24,216 bases of DNA, taken from the IMG/VR virus record IMGVR_UViG_3300042480_000974, positions 1 to 24,216 of that record; one strand, 5' to 3'. The position numbers and the translations under genes were made by a program. This DNA comes from a virus. A model generated the notes under the pieces. The model did no database searches. It worked only from the letters and a program-made list of their open reading frames with translations, and was not told the DNA's origin. Shown here in pieces: positions 402 to 12,851 of this stretch. Position 1 is the first letter of the stretch; each line of letters begins with the position of its first letter.

Positions 402-643
402 CAAACGCAGACGATCCACTGCCCGAGCCTTCGTTCCACTGGCGGCGCTGGGTGACGATTGGTTATGTTTCCGTCACCCTGATCCTTCTTGCGGCTATTG
501 TCTGGAAGCTGTCAGACGGTGGGCCGCTGCGGGACATCGCGCTGGCCCTGATCGGCTCGCAGGCGTTCTTTGCCCTCCTCTACATGGGCGGCGCGTCGGC
601 TGCTGATCTTGCCCGCATCATCGCAAGCTGGAAAAAGCCATGA
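398..643 (+). CDS. Putative holin (two transmembrane segments)
   Basis: This 81-residue protein has two clear hydrophobic stretches, about residues 18-37 (VTIGYVSVTLILLAAIVWKL) and 46-63 (IALALIGSQAFFALLYMG). Its N terminus is acidic and its C terminus is short and basic (SWKKP). Size, topology and charge pattern fit a class II phage holin, which forms lesions in the inner membrane and lets the endolysin reach the peptidoglycan. It overlaps the gene before and the endolysin gene after by 4 bases each. No family-specific motif is recognised, so the call rests on topology and on the holin-endolysin-spanin order. An antiholin, or the 108-401 product acting as the true holin, cannot be excluded. 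Confidence 0.7.
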   Translation: MTNADDPLPEPSFHWRRWVTIGYVSVTLILLAAIVWKLSDGGPLRDIALALIGSQAFFALLYMGGASAADLARIIASWKKP

Positions 644-1065
644 CCTATGCGCTAGGCCCCCAGTCCCGCGCTCGGCTCAAGGGCGTTCATCCCGATCTGG
701 TCAAAGTGGTCGAGCGGGCCATCGAACTGACGGATCAGGACTTTATGGTTCTGGAGGGCGTTCGGACGCCAGCGCGCCAAAAAGAGCTTTACGCTCAAGG
801 CCGCACCGCGCCCGGCCCCAAAGTGACATGGACCCTGAATAGCAACCATTTCATCAACCCTAAGACAGGGTTCGGACACGCCGTCGATCTTGTGCCCTTC
901 CCCGTGGATTGGTCGCACACCAAGCTCGACGTGGTTAGCAAGGCCATGTTTGCGGCGGCGTGGGAACTAGGCGTTCCGATTCGCTGGGGCCGTGACTGGA
1001 ATAGGAACGGAAAGCCTGCCGAAAAAGGCGAGACAGATAGTCCGCATTTTGAGATTATGATTTAG
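640..1065 (+). CDS. Endolysin, peptidase M15 family (VanY/CwlK-like L-alanyl-D-glutamate or D-Ala peptidase)
   Basis: This 141-residue protein has the M15 zinc peptidase signature. An LEGVRTPARQKELYAQGRT block (residues 38-56) is followed by a SxH...GHAVD region (S68, H70, H80, D83) and then DSPHFE (H136), which supplies the last zinc ligand. Such phage enzymes cut the peptide stem or cross-link of peptidoglycan. The length is normal for phage M15 endolysins and no signal peptide is seen, so release would depend on the holin upstream. The gene is unusual at its 3' end. The last codons (KPAEKGETDSPHFE) recur, recoded, at 1532-1573, beyond an HNH endonuclease gene on the other strand. The present end (IMI, stop at 1063-1065) therefore looks imported with the endonuclease, while the native end was left behind downstream. 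All catalytic residues remain, so the enzyme is probably active. Confidence 0.93.
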   Translation: MTYALGPQSRARLKGVHPDLVKVVERAIELTDQDFMVLEGVRTPARQKELYAQGRTAPGPKVTWTLNSNHFINPKTGFGHAVDLVPFPVDWSHTKLDVVSKAMFAAAWELGVPIRWGRDWNRNGKPAEKGETDSPHFEIMI

Positions 1066-1523
1066 GCGGCTCGGTAAAACTCGCCATGCACTTTTTGTGC
1101 CTTCGCGTTGCGCGCCTCGACGGCCTCTTGCTGAGTTGCAAACCGTCCTAGCCGGTAGCGTTTTCCGCCGAACTGAACTTCGGCCCGCCATTTTTGAGTT
1201 TGCCCGTCAAAATGAACGCCTTTAACGTTTTTGTTTGAACAGTTCTGACTTCTAGTCGCGGGACGCAAGTTTGCTCGGCTATTGTTAAGCCCGTCTCCGT
1301 CTCTGTGATCGACCTCTGGCACACCAGAGAGAATGACACGATGAAGATAGACAAGCCCGTCCCTTCTCCTACCCTTCTGGTACCCCCTGACGTAGAGTTT
1401 TGCCCCCGAACGGTGTATGTGCCATTGATGGCTTTCTAGCAGGCCCACGTCTTCATCGGATACGATGACGCAATGGCCGGAAATGAATGAGTGTCCCATT
1501 GCCCCACAATAGCGCACCCGCAC
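1062..1523 (-). CDS. HNH homing endonuclease with C-terminal AP2-like DNA-binding domain
   Basis: Read leftward, this protein of about 153 residues (GTG start; an ATG at 1499 is an equally good alternative) contains an HNH core. A YLHRVIL strand is followed by VDHRDGDGLNNSRANLR (about residues 71-87), with the H, N and N/H metal- and DNA-contacting positions. The C-terminal part (about residues 107-150, KWRAEVQFGGKRYRLGRF then EAVEARNAKAQKVHGEF) is the AP2-like DNA-binding module typical of phage HNH-AP2 homing endonucleases. Its stop codon overlaps the endolysin stop region. It is the only leftward gene in an otherwise rightward lysis cassette, and the end of the endolysin gene is duplicated on its far side. 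This marks it as a mobile insertion within the endolysin gene. Confidence 0.9.
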   Translation of the reverse strand: MRVRYCGAMGHSFISGHCVIVSDEDVGLLESHQWHIHRSGAKLYVRGYQKGRRRDGLVYLHRVILSGVPEVDHRDGDGLNNSRANLRPATRSQNCSNKNVKGVHFDGQTQKWRAEVQFGGKRYRLGRFATQQEAVEARNAKAQKVHGEFYRAA

Positions 1524-1525
1524 CT

Positions 1526-1585
1526 GAAAGCAAGCCGCGCGAGAAGGGCGAGACTGACAGCCCCCACTTTGAGCTTCATCGTTAA
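1526..1585 (+). pseudogene. Stranded native 3' end of the endolysin gene
   Basis: In the + frame, codons 1532-1585 read KPREKGETDSPHFELHR and stop. This matches the end of the intact endolysin (KPAEKGETDSPHFEIMI) at 13 of 14 positions up to the shared FE. By my count the two 42-base stretches differ at 10 positions, all in third codon positions except in the A/R codon. The downstream copy has no start codon or body. It ends TAATG, with its stop overlapping the spanin start by one base, which is the usual tight junction of this genome. It is therefore most likely the original end of the endolysin gene, cut off by insertion of the endonuclease gene. Confidence 0.85.
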
Positions 1586-2025
1586 TGCGTTATCTCCGCA
1601 TCATCACCCCGACCGGATGGCTTGTCATTGCAGCGGTTGCGGTGGTGCTGTTTGGTCTCGCCGGTCTGGCCCGTCCTAGCTTTCTCGGCCTCAAGTTTGA
1701 CCCGTTCGGCATTGATGCCCGCAAGATTGACCGGCTGGAAACGGAGGTCTCGGTGTTAGAGCGCGAGGCGACCGGCAACGCTGAAATAGCAGCGGCGACA
1801 CAAACCTTTCACACGCGGGAGGTTGTAATCCTCGACCTTGCCCGCCAAGCTGAAACCGAAGCGAGGACGGCACCCGATGCTGAAACGCCCCTTGACCCTG
1901 ACCGCGTGGCTCGTATTCGGGCTGCTGATCACCGGCTGTGCATCGTCGCCCCGTCAATCTGCGCCAATCCTGACCTTGCCGGAAGCGGCGCGGACGCCGT
2001 GCCAGTTACCGACCCTGCCCGATAG
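1585..2025 (+). CDS. Rz: Inner-membrane spanin (Rz-like i-spanin)
   Basis: This 146-residue protein has a short cytoplasmic basic N terminus and one transmembrane segment at about residues 11-28 (GWLVIAAVAVVLFGLAGL). A periplasmic helix predicted to form a coiled coil follows (about residues 46-100). This is the architecture of Rz-type i-spanins, which span the periplasm with an outer-membrane lipoprotein partner and fuse the two membranes in the final step of lysis of Gram-negative hosts. The partner gene is embedded in another frame within its 3' half, the classical Rz/Rz1 arrangement. The start overlaps the stop of the old endolysin tail (TAATG). Sequence identity to named Rz proteins is not evident; the call rests on topology and the nested lipoprotein. 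Confidence 0.82.
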   Translation: MRYLRIITPTGWLVIAAVAVVLFGLAGLARPSFLGLKFDPFGIDARKIDRLETEVSVLEREATGNAEIAAATQTFHTREVVILDLARQAETEARTAPDAETPLDPDRVARIRAADHRLCIVAPSICANPDLAGSGADAVPVTDPAR

Positions 2026-2176
2026 CCCCACCATCGCTGACCTTGAAGTCACACACGACGCTAGGGGCTTAATGCTGGCCGTGTGCGACGGGCGAAGGGA
2101 TTTGGCGGTCCAAGCCTTCGACGCTCAATCTCGCGCCTTGGCGACCCCTCCCCGCCCATTCTGGCGCTTTTGGTAA
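1877..2176 (+). CDS. Rz1: Outer-membrane lipoprotein spanin (Rz1-like o-spanin)
   Basis: This frame lies largely inside the i-spanin gene and extends past it. From the ATG at 1877 (99 residues) it begins MLKRPLTLTAWLVFGLLITG followed by CASS. That is a signal peptide ending in the lipobox LITG/C, so the cysteine at about residue 21 would be lipidated. The mature part is proline-rich (SAPILTLPEAARTPCQLPTLPDSP), as expected of Rz1. The product would sit on the inner face of the outer membrane and bind the i-spanin. The frame can be opened further upstream at 1838, but that would put basic residues before the signal sequence, so 1877 is preferred. The spanin pair implies a Gram-negative host. 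Confidence 0.85.
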   Translation: MLKRPLTLTAWLVFGLLITGCASSPRQSAPILTLPEAARTPCQLPTLPDSPTIADLEVTHDARGLMLAVCDGRRDLAVQAFDAQSRALATPPRPFWRFW

Positions 2177-2182
2177 TCTGAC

Positions 2183-3367
2183 ATGGCCTTGTCGTTTATT
2201 CCGCCGGAAAATGACGAGTATCCCCGATGGGTGACTGAAACCCAGATTAGATATCTAGAAGCGGTAAAAGAACACGGCGGCCAGAACGCCGCAGCTAGGG
2301 CGCTCGGTGTTGCGAAGAGTTCGGTCAACGAAGCGATTGCGACATACAAAAGGGAAGCGGCTAGGCGAGGACACGCTCCCGGCCATTTTGACGACGGCGT
2401 AGCCCCGGGCTTTGTTATGGGCAAAGTCACCATTCAGCGCGGCCCCGGCGGCGTTGAGAGGGTTTGGGAACGGCAGTCCCCAGACGCTGAATCGCAGGCT
2501 GAACGGTTGCAAGCTATCAAGGCGGGGCTTCTTGATGGGCTAGAGCCTATCGCGCCGCTTTCTGGGCCTGATTACACGGATGACGACCTTCTAACCGTCT
2601 ATCCTCAAGGCGACCCCCACGCGGGCCTGTATGCGTGGAAAGACGAAACTGGACAGGCTTTTGATCTGGTCGAATATGAGCGGGTGATGAAGGCCGCGAT
2701 TGATCGGCTTGTGGCGTCCGCTGCCCCGTCATCCCATGCGCTGTTTATTGACCTTGGCGACAGTCTCCATGCTGATAACAACGCGGCTCGAACGCGGTCT
2801 GGGCATCATCTAGACACGCATGGCCGTCACGCCGAAGTCGTCCGGGCTGTCATTCGGTGCAAGCGCCACCACGTCGCTCGGATGCTGGAAAAGCATAATC
2901 ATGTGACCGTGCGGATTAACCCCGGAAACCATGACGGCATAACGGCCCTGATGCTGGCCGAAATGATGGCGGCGATTTACGAAAACGAACCGCGCGTCAC
3001 GGTCTCGACTAGCCCTAACCCCTATTGGTTTCACGGCTTTGGCGCGAACTTGATCGGGACCACACACGGCGACGGGGCAAAGGGCGCAAATCTGCCCTTG
3101 CTGATGGCGGTGGATGCCCCCGCTATGTGGCTGGCGTCGGAGCATGGCTCGCGGGTCTGGTTCGTCGGCCACGTTCACCACAAAGACGTTAAGGACCATC
3201 CGGGCGTCACGGTGGAATATTGCCGGACCCTTGCGGCCCCTGACATTTGGAGCCACGCGAGTGGCTATCGCTCCAAGCGGTCAATCGAGGCGGTGACATA
3301 CCATCGGCTGGATGGCGAGGTTGAACGGCATACTTGCTCGATAGCGAGGGTGAACCGTGAACCTTAA
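2183..3367 (+). CDS. Calcineurin-like metallophosphoesterase with N-terminal helix-turn-helix
   Basis: This 394-residue protein has two parts. Residues about 17-56 look like a DNA-binding HTH (QIRYLEAVKEHGGQNAAARA then LGVAKSSVNEAI). Residues about 135-390 carry the metallophosphoesterase motifs in order: DPHAG (D144, H146), IDLGD (D190, D193), NPGNHD (249-251), THGDG (H295) and GHVHH (329-333). These bind a two-metal centre and hydrolyse phosphomono- or diesters, often in nucleic acids. The full motif set suggests an active enzyme. Similar HTH-phosphoesterase fusions occur in phages, but I know of no firmly assigned role; DNA or RNA processing is a guess. It follows the o-spanin by 6 bases and shares 11 bases with the next small ORF. 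Confidence 0.88.
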   Translation: MALSFIPPENDEYPRWVTETQIRYLEAVKEHGGQNAAARALGVAKSSVNEAIATYKREAARRGHAPGHFDDGVAPGFVMGKVTIQRGPGGVERVWERQSPDAESQAERLQAIKAGLLDGLEPIAPLSGPDYTDDDLLTVYPQGDPHAGLYAWKDETGQAFDLVEYERVMKAAIDRLVASAAPSSHALFIDLGDSLHADNNAARTRSGHHLDTHGRHAEVVRAVIRCKRHHVARMLEKHNHVTVRINPGNHDGITALMLAEMMAAIYENEPRVTVSTSPNPYWFHGFGANLIGTTHGDGAKGANLPLLMAVDAPAMWLASEHGSRVWFVGHVHHKDVKDHPGVTVEYCRTLAAPDIWSHASGYRSKRSIEAVTYHRLDGEVERHTCSIARVNREP

Positions 3368-3820: not shown

Positions 3821-4220
3821 GGTCTTCTCCTGTAAGGGCGGCTCGGGCGATGGCTTCAAAGCCGTCAGCTACAGATGTGACCATCTCGGCTGCTTCGCTT
3901 TTTCCCACGAGGACCAAGGCGGAAGTTGCAATACGCAGCGTCTTAGCCGTTTTCGATATTTCAGCTAAAGCCCCCCGCAGTCTCGCTATCTCAGCGGCTT
4001 GGCGTTCAAGGGTGTCGAGAAGCACGGGAGCGGCCTCGCGGGACAGTGCGATGAAGGCGGCGTCTTTTTCTGACACATAACTCGCCACCGGACACCCGCT
4101 GTCGCCCTCGATTATCCTCAAGCCCGACCGACCCCTAGTGTCGTCCCAAGGCCCCGGCGTGACACCTTTCAATGCAGCCCGCAGCCTCTCGCACAGATCG
4201 GCTATGTCAGGGGTGGTCAT
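3813..4220 (-). CDS. Ea22-like/hypothetical phage protein
   Basis: This 135-residue protein begins MTTPDIADLCERLRAALKGV, then TPGPWDD, a short central beta-like segment (GLRIIEGDSGCPVASYVSEK) and DAAFIALSREAAPVLLDTLE. A long helix predicted to coil follows (ERQAAEIARLRGALAEISKT). The TPGPW plus 'DAAFIA..R...P.LLD.LE' pattern is typical of Ea22-like (ead/Ea22) accessory proteins found in the leftward accessory regions of many phages. Their function is largely unknown. Overlaps of 4 bases upstream and 8 bases downstream tie it to the cassette. Recognition is by pattern only. Confidence 0.75.
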   Translation of the reverse strand: MTTPDIADLCERLRAALKGVTPGPWDDTRGRSGLRIIEGDSGCPVASYVSEKDAAFIALSREAAPVLLDTLERQAAEIARLRGALAEISKTAKTLRIATSALVLVGKSEAAEMVTSVADGFEAIARAALTGEDHD

Positions 4221-5131
4221 GCTTCCCTCCCTGTATCGGTAGGGCGAAGGGCTGCGAGGATGGCGTCAACAGCCTCCTCAACGCGGACTAGGGTGCCGTC
4301 GCTGTCCACGATGGCGTGGAGCAGTCGCGCAATATCCCCCCTGCTCACCCCTACCGGAACGACAGGCTGGCGAAGGGCTGCCATGATGGCGTCGGCGGAT
4401 TCATCGCGTCTCCACGAAGTCCGCCGCTGACCATGAAGCCACGCCTTGTCAAGCTCGTCCAAGACCCGCTCTCTCACCCCTACCGGAAAGACAGGGGATG
4501 CTGCGAGCATGGCGCGGTAGGCGGCTCGGTAACTGCCTTCGCTGAGGATATACGCGGTGAACATTGCGTCCAGCATAGCCTCTGTCGGCTCTATCGGAAC
4601 AGTCCGCCAAGCCTCCCCCTCTGGTGCAGGAACGACAGGGGATGCTTCGTCCGACACAGCCGCATTGAGCCGCTTTTCAAAGTCGCCCCACGACGCAGGG
4701 TCATCAGCATCCAGCCACGCCATGACGACAGCCTTGATCTCGTCGGCTGTTTTCGGAACGACAGGGGATGCGTAGAGGGGGCGGACCACCATATTCATAT
4801 CAGCGGCGACCTGTTCGGCGGTGGGCCTGTCACGGAAGACATACCGTGGGTCTATTCCGTTCCCGTCAGCGCAGCCCCAAAGCGAAGCCTCCCCCTCTGG
4901 TTCAGGAACGACAGGGGATGCGAGGTTGTTGGATGCGAACTTTGCAGCCTGCGCCATTTCCTCTTGCGAGACGTGCCGCCAAGCCTCCCCCTCTGGTGCA
5001 GGGGTGCGGGCCTTGATCAGTGCTAAAATCTGCGGCGCGGCTTCGGCTAGGCTTTCGCTGGCGTAGTGGTAGGACGTGTCTGTTTCAGCGTCGATGACGG
5101 CTTGGAGCAGGGCTTCCAGTTTCTCGCTCAT
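4217..5131 (-). CDS. Modular Ea22-like accessory protein with repeated linkers
   Basis: This 304-residue protein starts MSEKLEALLQAVIDAETDTS and is built of several short alpha-helical or WxxV-type modules. They are separated by a recurring linker, ASPVVPxPEGEA(W/S). Linker copies end or begin at about residues 44-51, 71-82, 122-127, 165-175 and 211-217. Modules resemble pieces common in Ea22-like phage proteins (for example PTEQVAADMN- and TEAMLDAMFTAYILSEGSYRAAYRAMLAAS-type units). The near-identical DNA of the linkers (see the repeat entry) suggests growth or exchange of modules by recombination in the linkers. Cellular role unknown. It overlaps both neighbours by 4 bases. Confidence 0.75.
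   Translation of the reverse strand: MSEKLEALLQAVIDAETDTSYHYASESLAEAAPQILALIKARTPAPEGEAWRHVSQEEMAQAAKFASNNLASPVVPEPEGEASLWGCADGNGIDPRYVFRDRPTAEQVAADMNMVVRPLYASPVVPKTADEIKAVVMAWLDADDPASWGDFEKRLNAAVSDEASPVVPAPEGEAWRTVPIEPTEAMLDAMFTAYILSEGSYRAAYRAMLAASPVFPVGVRERVLDELDKAWLHGQRRTSWRRDESADAIMAALRQPVVPVGVSRGDIARLLHAIVDSDGTLVRVEEAVDAILAALRPTDTGREA
4344..5003 (-). repeat. Dispersed linker repeats inside the modular Ea22-like gene
   Basis: On the + strand, AAGCCTCCCCCTCTGG followed by T(G/T)CAGG occurs at about 4609-4630, 4885-4906 and 4981-5002. The first two copies continue into AACGACAGGGGATGC (4631-4645 and 4907-4921), which also occurs alone at 4757-4771. A related CTCACCCCTACCGGAA(A/C)GACAGG occurs near 4344-4366 and 4473-4495. 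In protein terms these encode the ASPVVPxPEGEA linkers. The copies are far more alike than the modules they separate. Confidence 0.85.
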
Positions 5132-5971: not shown

Positions 5972-6165
5972 CACAGCCACCACAGGCTGATGACGCCAGC
6001 GAGGGCCAGCAGGATGATGAGGCTGCGAGGCCTGAACACCTCGGCCACGGCGCGAAGGGCGATGTGAGGCTCGTCGGAGGGGCGGAAGTCAAACCCGCGA
6101 TTAGATTGGTTGGTGGCCTGAGCCGCTTTCATGCGGTGGCAAACGTAGTCGGAACGGTCAATCAT
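5971..6165 (-). CDS. Small C-terminally anchored membrane protein
   Basis: This 64-residue protein has a soluble N-terminal part (MIDRSDYVCHRMKAAQATNQ) and one hydrophobic helix at the extreme C terminus (about residues 48-64, SLIILLALAGVISLWWL). That gives a tail-anchored layout with the N terminus probably in the cytoplasm. It overlaps the HNH gene before it by 4 bases and the HTPGPW gene after it by 1 base. It is one of two predicted membrane proteins in this cassette (the other ends it at 3543). Function unknown. A role in altering the host envelope or in superinfection exclusion is only a guess. Confidence 0.7.
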   Translation of the reverse strand: MIDRSDYVCHRMKAAQATNQSNRGFDFRPSDEPHIALRAVAEVFRPRSLIILLALAGVISLWWL

Positions 6166-6653
6166 TTCTGAGTCTCCCTTTTTTTGATTCTGTATTTTAC
6201 GCTGTTGGGCCTGATGCTGAACGCCTTGGCGATTGCCCTCAAAGAAGCGCCGCCGTCAGCCATTTCAAGCAAAGACGCCAACTGTTCTTTTGTCAGCTTC
6301 GGACTTCCGCCGCCTCCGCTGCATGATCGGCCTTTCGCCGCCATGTCCGCCATGTTCTCAGCGTGAGTGCCGAGAAAAAGGTGGTCTGGATTGATGCAGG
6401 CCCGAACGTCACATTTGTGTAGTACGTGAAGGCCCAGCGGGATAGGTCCGTTGGCAACAATCCACGCCATCCGGTGAGCGAGTGCGGGCCGCTTATTGAC
6501 TTTGATCGTCCCGTAACCAAAAGCCTGCACGGCAGCGGTCCACAGACGGCACCCGCTGTTTAACTCGGGCTCCGACCACTTTTCCAGACGCGCCGGGATT
6601 CCCGTGTGGCTTGGGCTAAACCGGCGAATCATTGTTCTTCTCGCTCTCCCCAT
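6162..6653 (-). CDS. HNH endonuclease (HNH_3-type, homing-like) with C-terminal HTH
   Basis: This protein of 163 residues (ATG at 6653; the ATG at 6632 is an alternative) has a GCRLWTAAVQAFGYGTIKV entry and AHRMAWIVANGPIP. The HNH core LHVLHKCDVRACINPDHLFL follows (about residues 77-97), then GTHAENMADM. This is the common phage/homing 'xHxCDxxxCxNPxHLxxGTxxxN' form with two cysteines. Residues about 118-160 (KLTKEQLASLLEMADGGASL, then RAIAKAFSIRPNSVKYRI) form a resolvase-like HTH for site recognition. It overlaps the preceding HTH gene by up to 38 bases and the next gene by 4. It was probably acquired as a mobile nuclease that kept the frame of the cassette. Confidence 0.9.
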   Translation of the reverse strand: MGRARRTMIRRFSPSHTGIPARLEKWSEPELNSGCRLWTAAVQAFGYGTIKVNKRPALAHRMAWIVANGPIPLGLHVLHKCDVRACINPDHLFLGTHAENMADMAAKGRSCSGGGGSPKLTKEQLASLLEMADGGASLRAIAKAFSIRPNSVKYRIKKRETQK

Positions 6654-6828
6654 CCCTCTCCATAGAGAAGGCTTTTAGCTTTTCACGAACCCAAGCTGAA
6701 TGTTTCTCGGGCACTCCGGTAGCAGCGTAACGGCGGCTTGTGCGTTCAGTCACGCCTATCGCCTTAGCCGCCCCGATCTGTGACAGACCAAGGGCGGCAA
6801 TCGCGGCGCGGTATTCGGTGTTTGTCAC
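6616..6828 (-). CDS. Small helix-turn-helix DNA-binding protein
   Basis: The GTG at 6828 overlaps the stop of the preceding gene (GTGA) and is preferred to the GTG at 6837. The 70-residue product contains a clear HTH (LSQIGAAKAIGVTERTSRRY, about residues 15-34) followed by AATGVPEKHSAWVREKL, then a polar tail. This layout matches small phage HTH proteins of the XRE/YdaS-like kind that bind operators or act as Cro-like regulators. It could regulate the leftward cassette from the region to its right. Its 3' end is overlapped by the HNH gene. Confidence 0.75.
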   Translation of the reverse strand: MTNTEYRAAIAALGLSQIGAAKAIGVTERTSRRYAATGVPEKHSAWVREKLKAFSMERDGESEKNNDSPV

Positions 6829-8304: not shown

Positions 8305-9249
8305 TTAAGCCTTGAACAAGCCCCGACCGATTTTCTCGATCTCCGCTAGGTTCTTGACGGCTTGCGCGAAGTAGGACGGCTTAAGTTCAACGCCGATGCC
8401 TTTGCGTCCCATGCGAGCCGCGCAATAGACCTCGCTCCCGATGCCAAGGAACGGGGTCAGAACCGTATCGCCTTCATTGCTCCAAAGGTCGATACACCGC
8501 TCGATCACGTCAAGCTGGAGAGGCGAGATGTGCTGTTCATCTTTCTGGTCGCGCCCGCCACGATATTGCAGGGTCCGCGTCTGGTTAATGTCCAGCCAGA
8601 CCGGCGAGGCGTAGCGTTGCCAGACCTCGATTGAATACCAGTTCCGCCCGTCTGTGTTAGTCGTGTATTTCGTAAAATCCGGGCCGTCGCTGTCGCCATA
8701 ATAAGCGTCGAAGCATCCGCTAACCGGCTCCGGGTTTTCGCCACGCTTGCGGAACGTGACGATGTAATCCGCCAGACCCTGCCCGCTGATCGTGCTGTCT
8801 TTGACGATTTGCTTGTGAAGCAGCCGGATGCTTTTCGTCCGTTGTTGCGCGACTACGGGGTCTTTCCAGATGCAAACCTCGCTATGGAAAATCCAGCCCG
8901 CATCCTCATAAGCCCGGATGACCTCGCCTCTGAAATCCCGCATCCCGATATGGCCGTGCCTGATCTTGCTAGTGGGCAGTTGCATGACGTGAACGCTATG
9001 CAAGCGCCCCGGCATAGTGACCCGGTGCAGTTCCTGAATGAGAAAGGCGTAATGCTCCCAGAACGCCGGGCCATCATTGTTCGATATGTCGCGGTCGCTG
9101 TTCGAGAACTTGTAAAGCCCTTCAAACGGCGGCGAGTGGATGCCGAAATGGATGCTGTCTGAAGGTATCTCGCGGATAACCTCGCAGCTATCGCCCAGAT
9201 AGACGGCGTAATCATCAGTGATGACTTGATCGATGCACTTATAGCTCAT
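8305..9249 (-). CDS. DNA methyltransferase, beta class (N4-cytosine or N6-adenine)
   Basis: This 314-residue protein starts MSYKCIDQVITDDYAVYLGD and shows the catalytic motif IV SPPF (39-42) near the N terminus. The AdoMet-binding motif I lies near the C terminus (TPFLGIGSEVYCAARMGRKG, from about 265). The order IV...I defines the beta class of amino-methyltransferases. SPPF is found in both N4-C and N6-A enzymes, so the modified base is unsure. About 180 residues between them would contain the target-recognition part (WKDPVVAQQRTKSIRLLHKQ...). It probably protects phage DNA from host restriction or marks it for regulation. No partner nuclease is evident. It overlaps the SNF2 helicase gene by 4 bases. 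Confidence 0.92.
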   Translation of the reverse strand: MSYKCIDQVITDDYAVYLGDSCEVIREIPSDSIHFGIHSPPFEGLYKFSNSDRDISNNDGPAFWEHYAFLIQELHRVTMPGRLHSVHVMQLPTSKIRHGHIGMRDFRGEVIRAYEDAGWIFHSEVCIWKDPVVAQQRTKSIRLLHKQIVKDSTISGQGLADYIVTFRKRGENPEPVSGCFDAYYGDSDGPDFTKYTTNTDGRNWYSIEVWQRYASPVWLDINQTRTLQYRGGRDQKDEQHISPLQLDVIERCIDLWSNEGDTVLTPFLGIGSEVYCAARMGRKGIGVELKPSYFAQAVKNLAEIEKIGRGLFKA

Positions 9250-10640
9250 TGGTTTCCCCTTATGAAATCCGGCAGAATGATAGTTTGTTGCGGGTTATAG
9301 TCGGCACGGTCGCGGACGGAACCGCGCACCGCAAGGCTGGACAGGTCGGCCATGTGCAGGACCATTGAAGCGGCCATGCGTTCGGCGTCACTTTCTTTGC
9401 GCTTGATGTTGGCCACGGTCGCGCCTTCCGTTTCAGCGGCGATGATGTGGCAGTTTACGGGCTGAGTTTGGCCAAAGCGCCAGAACCGGCGAATGGCCTG
9501 ATAAAACTGCTCGAAGCTATCCGACAATCCGACAAAGCCCGTATCCGCGCAATGCTGCCAGTTCATGCCAAAGCCGCAGATTGACGGCTTAGTGACCAGA
9601 ACACGGATGCGGCCCTCGGTGAAGTCGATTAGCTTACGCTCTTTCGCCGCGTCATTGTCAGACCCGCGAACCTCGACTGCGCCCGGTATTGCCTTCGCCA
9701 GCGCCTCGCTCTCGCTGTTGAGATTGCACCACCAAACGAACGGGCGGTCTGTCGGGGTGATGTCAACGGCCATCTTGACCCGATCATCCACGGTGTCGCG
9801 CCGGGCTGAAATACGCTCCGAAAGCGTGGCGGCTTGGATAGGGAAAAGCATCCCTGTTTCAATGCTAGGCCGATATTCCACCCCGACCGTGTGTTGATGA
9901 TAGTGCAACGGGGGAAGGTCATAACCTTCGTTTGGATAGCCAAGGTCTGACGGCTTGCGAAGCATCACCGCCCATGACGCCATCCACTTCCAGAACTCGT
10001 TTTCAGCGTGGCCTTTCAGACGCCAGTTTTGCGTTGAGCCGCCGTCATGGACAAAGAACGTCGCGAGCATATCCGTGTAGGACATGACGCCCAGAAACTC
10101 GGCGTGATTGCCTAGTTCCATAAAGTCGTTTGGAGCGGGTGTAGCAGTCGCGGCAAGGCGGAATGGCACGACCTGACAATCCTGAATCAGCTTGTTTCGA
10201 TAGTGGCCGTCCGTCGATTTCAGGATGCTGCTTTCATCCAGAATGACGCCGCCAAACGACGCGACATCAAAATGCTCGATCTTTTGATAGTTCGTGACGC
10301 AGATGCCGCCGTTTTCGCAGTCGGATTGTTTCGTAACGAGCCGGGCCGGAATGCCGAACTTATCAGCCTCCCGAACAAGCTGAGATGACACGGCGAGCGG
10401 CGCAAGATGCAACACGGGCTTGCCAGTCGTTTCGGCCACGACCTGACCCCATGCCAGTTCCATTAACGACTTGCCCAGACCAGTCCCCGCGAACAAAGCC
10501 GACCGGCCACGACGCAACGCCCATGACACGATGTCTCGCTGATGCGGGAACAAACAGTCGGGCAACGGTGGAAATTCTGATATACCCGTGAACGGGTCTG
10601 TAACGGCTTTTGCCGCTAGGAACGCCTCATATTTAGTCAC
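9246..10640 (-). CDS. SNF2-type superfamily 2 helicase/translocase
   Basis: The GTG at 10640 follows AAGGGGAAAAC and is chosen over an upstream ATG at 10700 that would overlap the HTH gene. In the 464-residue product, a Q-like FPHQRDIVSW precedes Walker A AGTGLGKS (51-58) and Walker B VILDESS (132-138). Motif III is AATATP (163-168) and motif VI QAIRRFWRFGQ (381-391) is typical of SNF2 proteins. Such ATPases translocate on duplex DNA. Similar phage genes are usually annotated as DEAD/SNF2 helicases. The 4-base overlap with the DNA methyltransferase suggests the two are made together. Functions in replication, recombination or counter-defence are all possible. No nuclease domain is present. 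Confidence 0.92.
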   Translation of the reverse strand: MTKYEAFLAAKAVTDPFTGISEFPPLPDCLFPHQRDIVSWALRRGRSALFAGTGLGKSLMELAWGQVVAETTGKPVLHLAPLAVSSQLVREADKFGIPARLVTKQSDCENGGICVTNYQKIEHFDVASFGGVILDESSILKSTDGHYRNKLIQDCQVVPFRLAATATPAPNDFMELGNHAEFLGVMSYTDMLATFFVHDGGSTQNWRLKGHAENEFWKWMASWAVMLRKPSDLGYPNEGYDLPPLHYHQHTVGVEYRPSIETGMLFPIQAATLSERISARRDTVDDRVKMAVDITPTDRPFVWWCNLNSESEALAKAIPGAVEVRGSDNDAAKERKLIDFTEGRIRVLVTKPSICGFGMNWQHCADTGFVGLSDSFEQFYQAIRRFWRFGQTQPVNCHIIAAETEGATVANIKRKESDAERMAASMVLHMADLSSLAVRGSVRDRADYNPQQTIILPDFIRGNQ

Positions 10641-11400: not shown

Positions 11401-11774
11401 GTTTCCCCCTTGGGCTTCCGCTGGAAACCTCTTGATTGGATTTTGACCCCTTTGGGCCATTCGTTGCGGCTTTGCATCCTGCTAGGCTTACGGGTCAGCG
11501 GATCAGCCTTCTTGATTAGCCGATTGACCTTCCCTCGGGCGGACGCCTCGCCAGACGTTTTGGAGGCGTGGCAAGCCGGTATCCAAGCCTCAAGGTTTTC
11601 AATGTCGTTTGTTCCGCCGCGCCACAGTGGGTTTCGATGCTCAATGTGGAAGCCCGGCTGTAGCTTCTTGCCGCATCCGCACTGGCACCGACCCTCAGCC
11701 CGATTGAATATCTCCAACCGTTGCTTTTTGGTGAAAGACTTGCGCGGGTGGATTTCGACGGGCTCACGCTGCAT
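11397..11774 (-). CDS. HNH endonuclease (McrA-like fold)
   Basis: This 125-residue protein has a basic N terminus and FTKKQRLEIFNRAEGRCQCG, with cysteines in CQCGCG. The HNH core follows as FHIEHRNPLWRGGTNDIENL, then EAWIPACHASKT. The H-E/D-H...N...H layout with zinc cysteines (C-C-C...C) is the classical McrA-type HNH found in many phages, often with a structural or packaging role. Here it lies within the replication/modification operon. It lacks the AP2 or HTH targeting domain of the other two HNH genes, and its junctions with neighbours (4 and 11 bases) are native-looking. It is therefore more likely a phage functional nuclease than a homing element. Confidence 0.9.
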   Translation of the reverse strand: MQREPVEIHPRKSFTKKQRLEIFNRAEGRCQCGCGKKLQPGFHIEHRNPLWRGGTNDIENLEAWIPACHASKTSGEASARGKVNRLIKKADPLTRKPSRMQSRNEWPKGVKIQSRGFQRKPKGET

Positions 11775-12513
11775 GGAAGTCAGCCAGAATCGCGCGCCCG
11801 ATCATTTCGGGAATCTGAGGAACCACAGCGTTTCCAAGGGCCGCTAAGGCAGCCTCGTCCACATAGGAGGGAACCCCATCATGCCCTCCACACACATAGG
11901 GCACGGAGCCTTCATGAAAAGCGCGCTCAAGCCCACTTGCTTGCCGATACGCATCCGACGTTGCACGGAGGGCAATAGCAAGTTGCCTCTGTCGCGGTTG
12001 TCGCTTGCCAATGGGGTAGGCAATAATCCAAACGCGGTCCCGGCCATGGGGCGCGCCAACGTGGGAAGCCGGTATGCAATGCCATTCCGCATCAAACCCG
12101 AGCGTGGCCAGCGGCCCGAGTATGTCTCCAATCCATCCATCAAGCAGCTCTGGGCTGTTTTCCACGATGACAAATTGGGGTCGAACCTCGCCAATAAGGC
12201 GAGCGAACTCACTCCATAGTCCGCTGCGCTCTCCGTCGAGGCCCTTGCGGCTTCCCGACGTTGATAGGTCCTGGCATGGGAAGCCTCCGACGATAACGTC
12301 GGGGTATATTCCGGCGGCAGCAAGCTTGCCTGCTGTGAGGGTCTGAACGTCTTCATAGCAGGGAACCTCGGGCCAATGTTTCGCCAATACGGCGCGGGGG
12401 AACGGTTCGATTTCACAGAAGGCAACGGTTTTAAATCCGCCAGTGCGTTCAAGCCCAAGGGAAAAACCGCCAATACCGCTGAATAGGTCCAGAACCTTTA
12501 GTTTCTCGGTCAT
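11764..12513 (-). CDS. DNA (cytosine-5) methyltransferase
   Basis: This 249-residue enzyme has the C5-methyltransferase motifs in order: I DLFSGIGGFSLGL (9-21); IV GGFPCQDLS (76-84) with catalytic Cys80; VI IVENSPELL (116-124); VIII GRDRVWIIAYP (157-167); and X LGNAVVPQ (226-233). Motif VI has ENS where most enzymes have ENV, a change often seen in phage enzymes. The target-recognition region between VIII and X is short, about 55 residues. It would methylate C5 of cytosine in a short target, probably to evade host restriction. No cognate restriction enzyme is visible. It overlaps the RusA gene by 4 bases and the HNH gene by 11. Confidence 0.95.
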   Translation of the reverse strand: MTEKLKVLDLFSGIGGFSLGLERTGGFKTVAFCEIEPFPRAVLAKHWPEVPCYEDVQTLTAGKLAAAGIYPDVIVGGFPCQDLSTSGSRKGLDGERSGLWSEFARLIGEVRPQFVIVENSPELLDGWIGDILGPLATLGFDAEWHCIPASHVGAPHGRDRVWIIAYPIGKRQPRQRQLAIALRATSDAYRQASGLERAFHEGSVPYVCGGHDGVPSYVDEAALAALGNAVVPQIPEMIGRAILADFHAA

Positions 12514-12851
12514 TGCATAATCTCAATTCGAACCAGACCGCCAGTAATCGGCTCTCCAAAGGTTAGTAAGGGCGCGTTAAACTGCTTGTCATCAACGCCG
12601 AGCGCCAGCGCCAAGCCGTCCTGATACGCCTTCAAGCTGGCCCGCGCGTTGTCGTCATCTATCGCGTGAGCGGTCTTTGGGTGTATAGTGACGGACCAGT
12701 TAATGCGGCCCGGTTCCCGTCGCTCTTTAAGAGGTACGTAAGCCGCAACATAGGCCCACTGTTTGTGAGCTTTAAATGCCTTGGCCTTCGTAGCCCAATG
12801 GCCCCGACCGTTAGGCCAGAGGATTGTGGCAGGCATCGGCAACTCGATCAC
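12510..12851 (-). CDS. rusA: RusA-like Holliday junction resolvase
   Basis: This 113-residue protein begins with a beta strand (MIELPMPATILWPNGRGHWA), where PNGRGHW matches the RusA N-terminal loop. The catalytic acidic cluster is AIDDDNARASLKAYQDGL (D65-D67, K74, D78), followed by LGVDDKQF (D87, D88). These positions correspond to the metal-binding aspartates and catalytic lysine of RusA. The enzyme cuts four-way DNA junctions during recombination or replication, for example to remove branches before packaging. Its length is normal. Together with ERF, the SSB-like protein and NinB on the other arm it completes a phage recombination set. Confidence 0.92.
   Translation of the reverse strand: MIELPMPATILWPNGRGHWATKAKAFKAHKQWAYVAAYVPLKERREPGRINWSVTIHPKTAHAIDDDNARASLKAYQDGLALALGVDDKQFNAPLLTFGEPITGGLVRIEIMQ

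Follow-up and report, generated by a model that had tools for sequence, protein, structure and literature searches.

It is usually assumed that a mobile endonuclease can enter an essential gene without killing it only by means of an intron or intein. The stretch of phage DNA analyzed here (positions 1 to 24,216 of the IMG/VR record IMGVR_UViG_3300042480_000974, hereafter the window) raises the question of how an endolysin gene can be complete next to an endonuclease gene when what looks like its own 3′ end lies stranded on the far side of that gene. The endolysin ORF (640 to 1065, plus strand; 141 aa) was identified as an M15C L-Ala-D-Glu peptidase using PHROG 465, an alignment with 2mxz and an AlphaFold model, and it terminates in ...DSPHFEIMI, a replaced C-terminus as argued below. 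Convergent with it, the two stop codons overlapping, is a minus-strand ORF for an HNH_3-AP2 endonuclease (1062 to 1523; 153 aa from GTG, with an internal ATG at MGHSF as alternative start), identified by Pfam and PHROG 99. The stranded endolysin end, KPREKGETDSPHFELHR-TAA (1532 to 1584, plus strand), follows and runs via TAATG into the ATG at 1585 of a candidate inner-membrane spanin in Rz-like position (1585 to 2025, plus strand), which an Rz1/LysC-like candidate outer-membrane spanin overlaps (1838 to 2176, plus strand; PHROG 456, 3e-6, and, short of the Pfam cut-off, LysC at 2e-4).

The endolysin's final 14 codons up to PHFE (1012 to 1053, KPAEKGETDSPHFE) recur at 1532 to 1573 (KPREKGETDSPHFE), beyond the opposite-strand HNH gene, as the original prediction had noticed; 13 of 14 residues are the same and 10 of 42 bases differ, eight of these differences being silent and two falling in a single Ala/Arg codon. 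The prediction further claimed that the downstream copy is the native junction with the spanin gene and that the upstream one was imported, and it proposed a comparison with relatives lacking the HNH gene. Three IMG/VR contigs (L001, L002, and L047) are syntenic with the window except for the missing HNH gene, and all of them bear both claims out. Their endolysin genes end uninterrupted in KPREKGETDSPHFELHR-TAATG-spanin, and neither both ends together nor an end in IMI is present in any of the three. The downstream copy is therefore the native end, and the spanin candidate, found after the intact endolysin in all three, is its native downstream neighbor. The endolysins of L001 and L002 share 96% protein identity with that of the window, and L047 is 94.4% identical to window positions 1530 to 2188. 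Over the 42 bases of the repeat the stranded copy is one or two bases from L001 and L002, whereas the upstream tail is eight to ten away. Over 56 bases the stranded end differs from L002 at two positions and from L001 at four, and these few, all-silent differences suggest that the insertion was recent.

The extent of the foreign sequence was determined from the position at which the endolysin gene ceases to resemble its relatives. Up to gene position ~345 the window differs from L001 at 14 of 344 bases and thereafter at 18 of 73 (Fisher 2e-7); the corresponding counts for L002 are 18 of 344 and 20 of 73 (Fisher 2e-7). At the same switch GC3 of the window endolysin drops from 0.70 to 0.50, and no such fall is seen in L001, L002, or L047. 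The foreign stretch spans about 970-990 to 1531, and the replacement 3′ end of the endolysin was annotated at 984 to 1065 (plus strand; left boundary within 970-990). That the 3′ end was replaced, as predicted, is thus upheld, but the foreign part starts before the 14-codon repeat: about 28 native bases left of the break have been replaced, a co-converted flank around the insertion. When the endolysin body up to 1011 is read directly onto 1532 to 1584, the frame stays open and ends in KPREKGETDSPHFELHR, as in the relatives. Since the differences in the imported tail are mostly silent, it has evolved as a working endolysin end; a donor endolysin ending in FEIMI was found neither in phages nor in IMG/VR.

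The similarity of the endolysin to the PHROG 465 endolysin is strong (E 2e-47), and among solved structures it is closest to L-Ala-D-Glu (M15C) peptidases, namely RB49 (23ri), LysECD7 (8q2g), T5 (2mxz), and ChiX (5opz); the AlphaFold model (pLDDT 87) matches ChiX 5opz and RB49 23ri. With the zinc ligands of the T5 enzyme as reference, alignment with 2mxz places the ligands of the window endolysin at H70, D83, and H136. The last of these aligns with the final zinc-ligand His of T5, in agreement with its predicted role as third ligand, and it lies within the duplicated end, so that its loss should kill the endolysin. Nothing is missing from the upstream gene, which has a stop codon of its own and, by this alignment, all three ligands. 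The HNH ORF matches Pfam HNH_3 (5e-6, above cut-off), AP2 (4e-5, below cut-off), and PHROG 99 HNH (4e-32) and keeps the conserved HNH/AP2 residues of its family, so that its nuclease domain is apparently intact. Elsewhere in the window, all on the minus strand, an ORF at 6162 to 6674 (..SGCRLWTAAVQAFGYGTIKVN..) resembles another HNH endonuclease by eye only, and ORFs at 8305 to 9294 (SPPFEGL motif) and 11764 to 12522 (LDLFSGIGGFSLGLERTGGF motif) look, again by eye, like DNA methyltransferases. A long minus-strand ORF at 4217 to 5131 consists of repeated PEGEAW / ASPVVP segments, and the L001/L002 DNA that matches it is in several short pieces.

The best explanation, and in our judgment a quite probable one, is intronless homing, in which an HNH endonuclease brings along a replacement C-terminus for the endolysin. 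A free-standing HNH gene, with the end of its previous host's divergent but related endolysin gene attached, would have entered the endolysin at the conserved C-terminal zinc-ligand codons (approximately GGA/AAG-CCG-CGC). The enzyme would nick or cut the native site, and repair would copy the tail together with the HNH gene from the donor phage, the left boundary being set by homology within the endolysin and the right junction (1531/1532) forming almost without homology. The imported tail would keep the endolysin whole without splicing and, being recoded by silent changes, should escape cutting by the HNH enzyme. An HNH domain, an empty site in relatives, the lack of an intron or intein, and a co-converted flank are all features of intronless homing found in the window element. 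What preserves the stranded end may be the spanin's TAATG start context within it, and this end might conceivably be translated as a short leader by which translational coupling of the next gene is maintained. A possible 32-codon mini-ORF (1487 to 1584, plus strand) begins within the insert, at an ATG that shares the frame of the stranded end, and finishes on the spanin start; an in-frame ATG also precedes the stranded end of the second case described below, there with a strong Shine-Dalgarno sequence, although such in-frame starts are not rare by chance.

The second, independent lysis-gene case is L014 (IMGVR_UViG_3300033052_000128), in which an endolysin ending in SDSPHFEIMTD is followed by a same-strand HNH gene and then by a stranded SPHFELAR. 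The HNH gene is of a different family (PHROG 374/3377) and of opposite relative orientation to that of the window. The stranded end is preceded by GAAGGAG-CGCCC-ATG, its TGA overlaps the next start (ATGA), and the uninterrupted counterpart FELAR-ATGA is present in L126, a Caulobacteraceae contig that is not a close relative; L014 has no close empty-site relative. Among 120 distinct endolysin tails, those of the window and L014 are mutual best matches, sharing 17 of 18 bases over DSPHFE and 22 of 24 when the unique IM codons are included. In IMG/VR, DNA encoding DSPHFEIM recurs in the L014 contig and in one unrelated match (L044), and no endolysin other than these two has the motif. Short as they are, these sequences suggest that both tails may derive from one unsampled endolysin lineage despite the unrelated HNH genes. 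An HNH relative directly follows the endolysin in three of 120 distinct endolysin ends with at least 1 kb of downstream sequence, the third being L096 (231 to 800), where an endolysin with an atypical tail (FEEVI) precedes an HNH-AP2 gene that looks frameshifted and decayed, and where a stranded end is absent.

To place these loci in a wider context, ~170 IMG/VR loci with relatives of either HNH protein (window or L014) were scanned for a gene end recurring across the HNH gene. A first flank scan by blastp returned mostly low-complexity noise. It gave way to a C-terminally anchored test, in which the match is anchored at the stop codon and the null is obtained by mixing left and right flanks between different loci. 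The window scored 75 against a null maximum of 44 (p ~8e-5 in a restricted test); its end duplication is not due to chance. L338, with a score of 51 and, in the restricted test, p 2e-4, has a NikA-like gene ending in ..LRFIINIDSVTNIISKLKGEK, an HNH_3-AP2 gene, and then ..IKLIISLDASSGIIKKLKEEK; L339, from a second metagenome, has the same arrangement without a difference over 1200 bases, and the pair is likely a further case in another phage gene. L303, with a borderline score equal to the null maximum (44), has a MuF-like head gene ending in IRRGARSSVGL and, beyond an HNH_3-AP2 gene, the sequence IRKGVRSSVGL, which begins at the stop of the HNH gene, and L437 has a ninB gene, an HNH gene, and a NinB-like end (p 7e-4 among ~170 tests); as further cases these two are weaker. 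None of these loci has an empty-site relative, and as cases they range from probable to possible. The restricted test missed L014 and L303 through its handling of HNH ORF boundaries, and their support comes from reading the sequences directly. In INPHARED no empty-site relatives of L338 or L303 were found, nor was a duplicated gene end in the flanks of five HNH relatives there.

Some loci of the scan have further features. The MuF-like gene of L303 (443 to 2692) contains an intein-like segment (Pfam Intein_splicing, below its cut-off) and a long opposite-strand ORF (1526 to 2491). In L285 the start of a VRR-NUC-like gene (MSAPRPLPGMG) is copied at the start of the HNH ORF (2833 and ~3468), a possible mirror-image 5′-end version of the arrangement. 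In L323 (1930 to 3284) a resolvase gene precedes an HNH ORF whose C-terminus is similar to the HTH end of that resolvase; this locus could be either a replacement-end event or an ordinary HNH-HTH fusion, and it was not counted, given that HNH enzymes can carry HTH domains.

Ordinary mosaic recombination also took place at the window locus, which is 91% like L002 upstream and 94% like L047 downstream, and HNH genes can adjoin intact genes; the neighboring endolysin and HNH genes of a donor might thus have been joined illegitimately to an L047-like end, with the HNH gene a passenger. We regard this as unlikely, since in L014 the anatomy recurs, at the conserved codons also occupied in the window but with an unrelated HNH gene, and since end duplications flank other HNH genes above the null. 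These two observations suggest the endonuclease as the common factor, and we infer that the HNH enzyme was itself the driver. That the closest relatives differ between the two sides of a single metagenomic contig would also fit a chimera in which assembly fused two phages at 1531/1532. Yet no shared sequence that could have led to a misjoin is visible across the junction, and the recurrence of the anatomy in L014, together with the identity of L338 and L339 in two metagenomes, makes such an artifact very improbable.

Group I introns often house HNH genes, and it is the stranded copy that represents the native end, both of which a self-splicing intron or intein would account for if the tail and HNH gene were removed and the endolysin body joined to the stranded end. 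Against this, an Rfam search of positions 500 to 2300 returned nothing even at E 5, the HNH gene runs on the strand opposite to the endolysin, and the upstream gene needs no splicing to be complete; we therefore consider splicing extremely unlikely. The two homologous ends in tandem could finally be remnants of a tandem endolysin duplication that lost its second body and received the HNH gene later between the copies. This is barely credible, as L001, L002, and L047 each have a single endolysin whose end at the spanin is exactly the downstream copy, and no remnant of a second endolysin body is left in the window.

Homing with a replacement gene end has a precedent in fungal mitochondria, to which the original prediction had rightly pointed. 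Mobile ORFs with a replacement C-terminus are described from atp6 of Allomyces macrogynus, atp6, atp9, cox2, and nad3 of Glomus sp., atp9 of Rhizopus, and cox2 of Mortierella, and in Allomyces and Glomus the C-terminus brought by the insert has diverged, and the native one that remains downstream is close to that of relatives (PMC3630166). The window has the same anatomy, an endonuclease ORF in a gene with a divergent in-frame foreign C-terminus upstream and the native one downstream, and in both systems the protein is far better conserved than the DNA (PMC3630166). The Glomus elements, in contrast, are mitochondrial, encode LAGLIDADG or GIY-YIG enzymes, and are in some cases in frame with the host gene (PMC3630166), whereas the window has an opposite-strand HNH-AP2 gene in a phage lysis operon. 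Judged by its HNH_3/AP2 domains, its PHROG 99 assignment, and its phage host, the window element would function like the fungal mobile ORFs and not be a member of them. Within phages, the excerpts of PMC2988022 describe T4-type mob and seg genes as intergenic, with mobE and mobA splitting a host gene in two in related phages; free-standing T4-like HNH genes (mob, intronless homing) resemble the window in lacking an intron, in being absent from syntenic relatives, and in lying beside or in a conserved gene, but those excerpts describe no replacement gene end. Group I introns with HNH genes such as I-PfoP3I (PMC3428280) likewise place an HNH gene inside a conserved phage gene, in contrast to the window, in which no intron was detected and splicing is unneeded. 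In the open-access literature, to which the search was confined, no phage example of a replacement-end insertion was found. The prediction that this arrangement is not known from phage lysis genes is now extended by the second lysis-gene case, L014, and by probable cases in other phage genes. What appears new is the pairing of an HNH enzyme with a replacement end in phages, the mechanism itself being known from fungal mitochondria.

Phages may, or may equally well not, carry a general class of HNH cassettes with a recoded replacement end, which would need no splicing to enter conserved catalytic codons of essential genes and whose ends would be reusable by unrelated HNH genes, as the ..DSPHFEIM.. 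shared by the window and L014 would illustrate; its cases would be the endolysin, ninB, MuF-like head, and NikA-like genes and possibly a 5′-end version. By supplying the missing gene end instead of an intron or intein, the window cassette would represent another way for phages to host elements in coding sequence, and such cassettes may be vehicles for swapping the C-terminal ends of lysis enzymes. They would also make this mechanism, whose other known examples are in fungal mitochondria, accessible in tractable phages, and HNH genes adjoining phage genes can conceal stranded gene ends.
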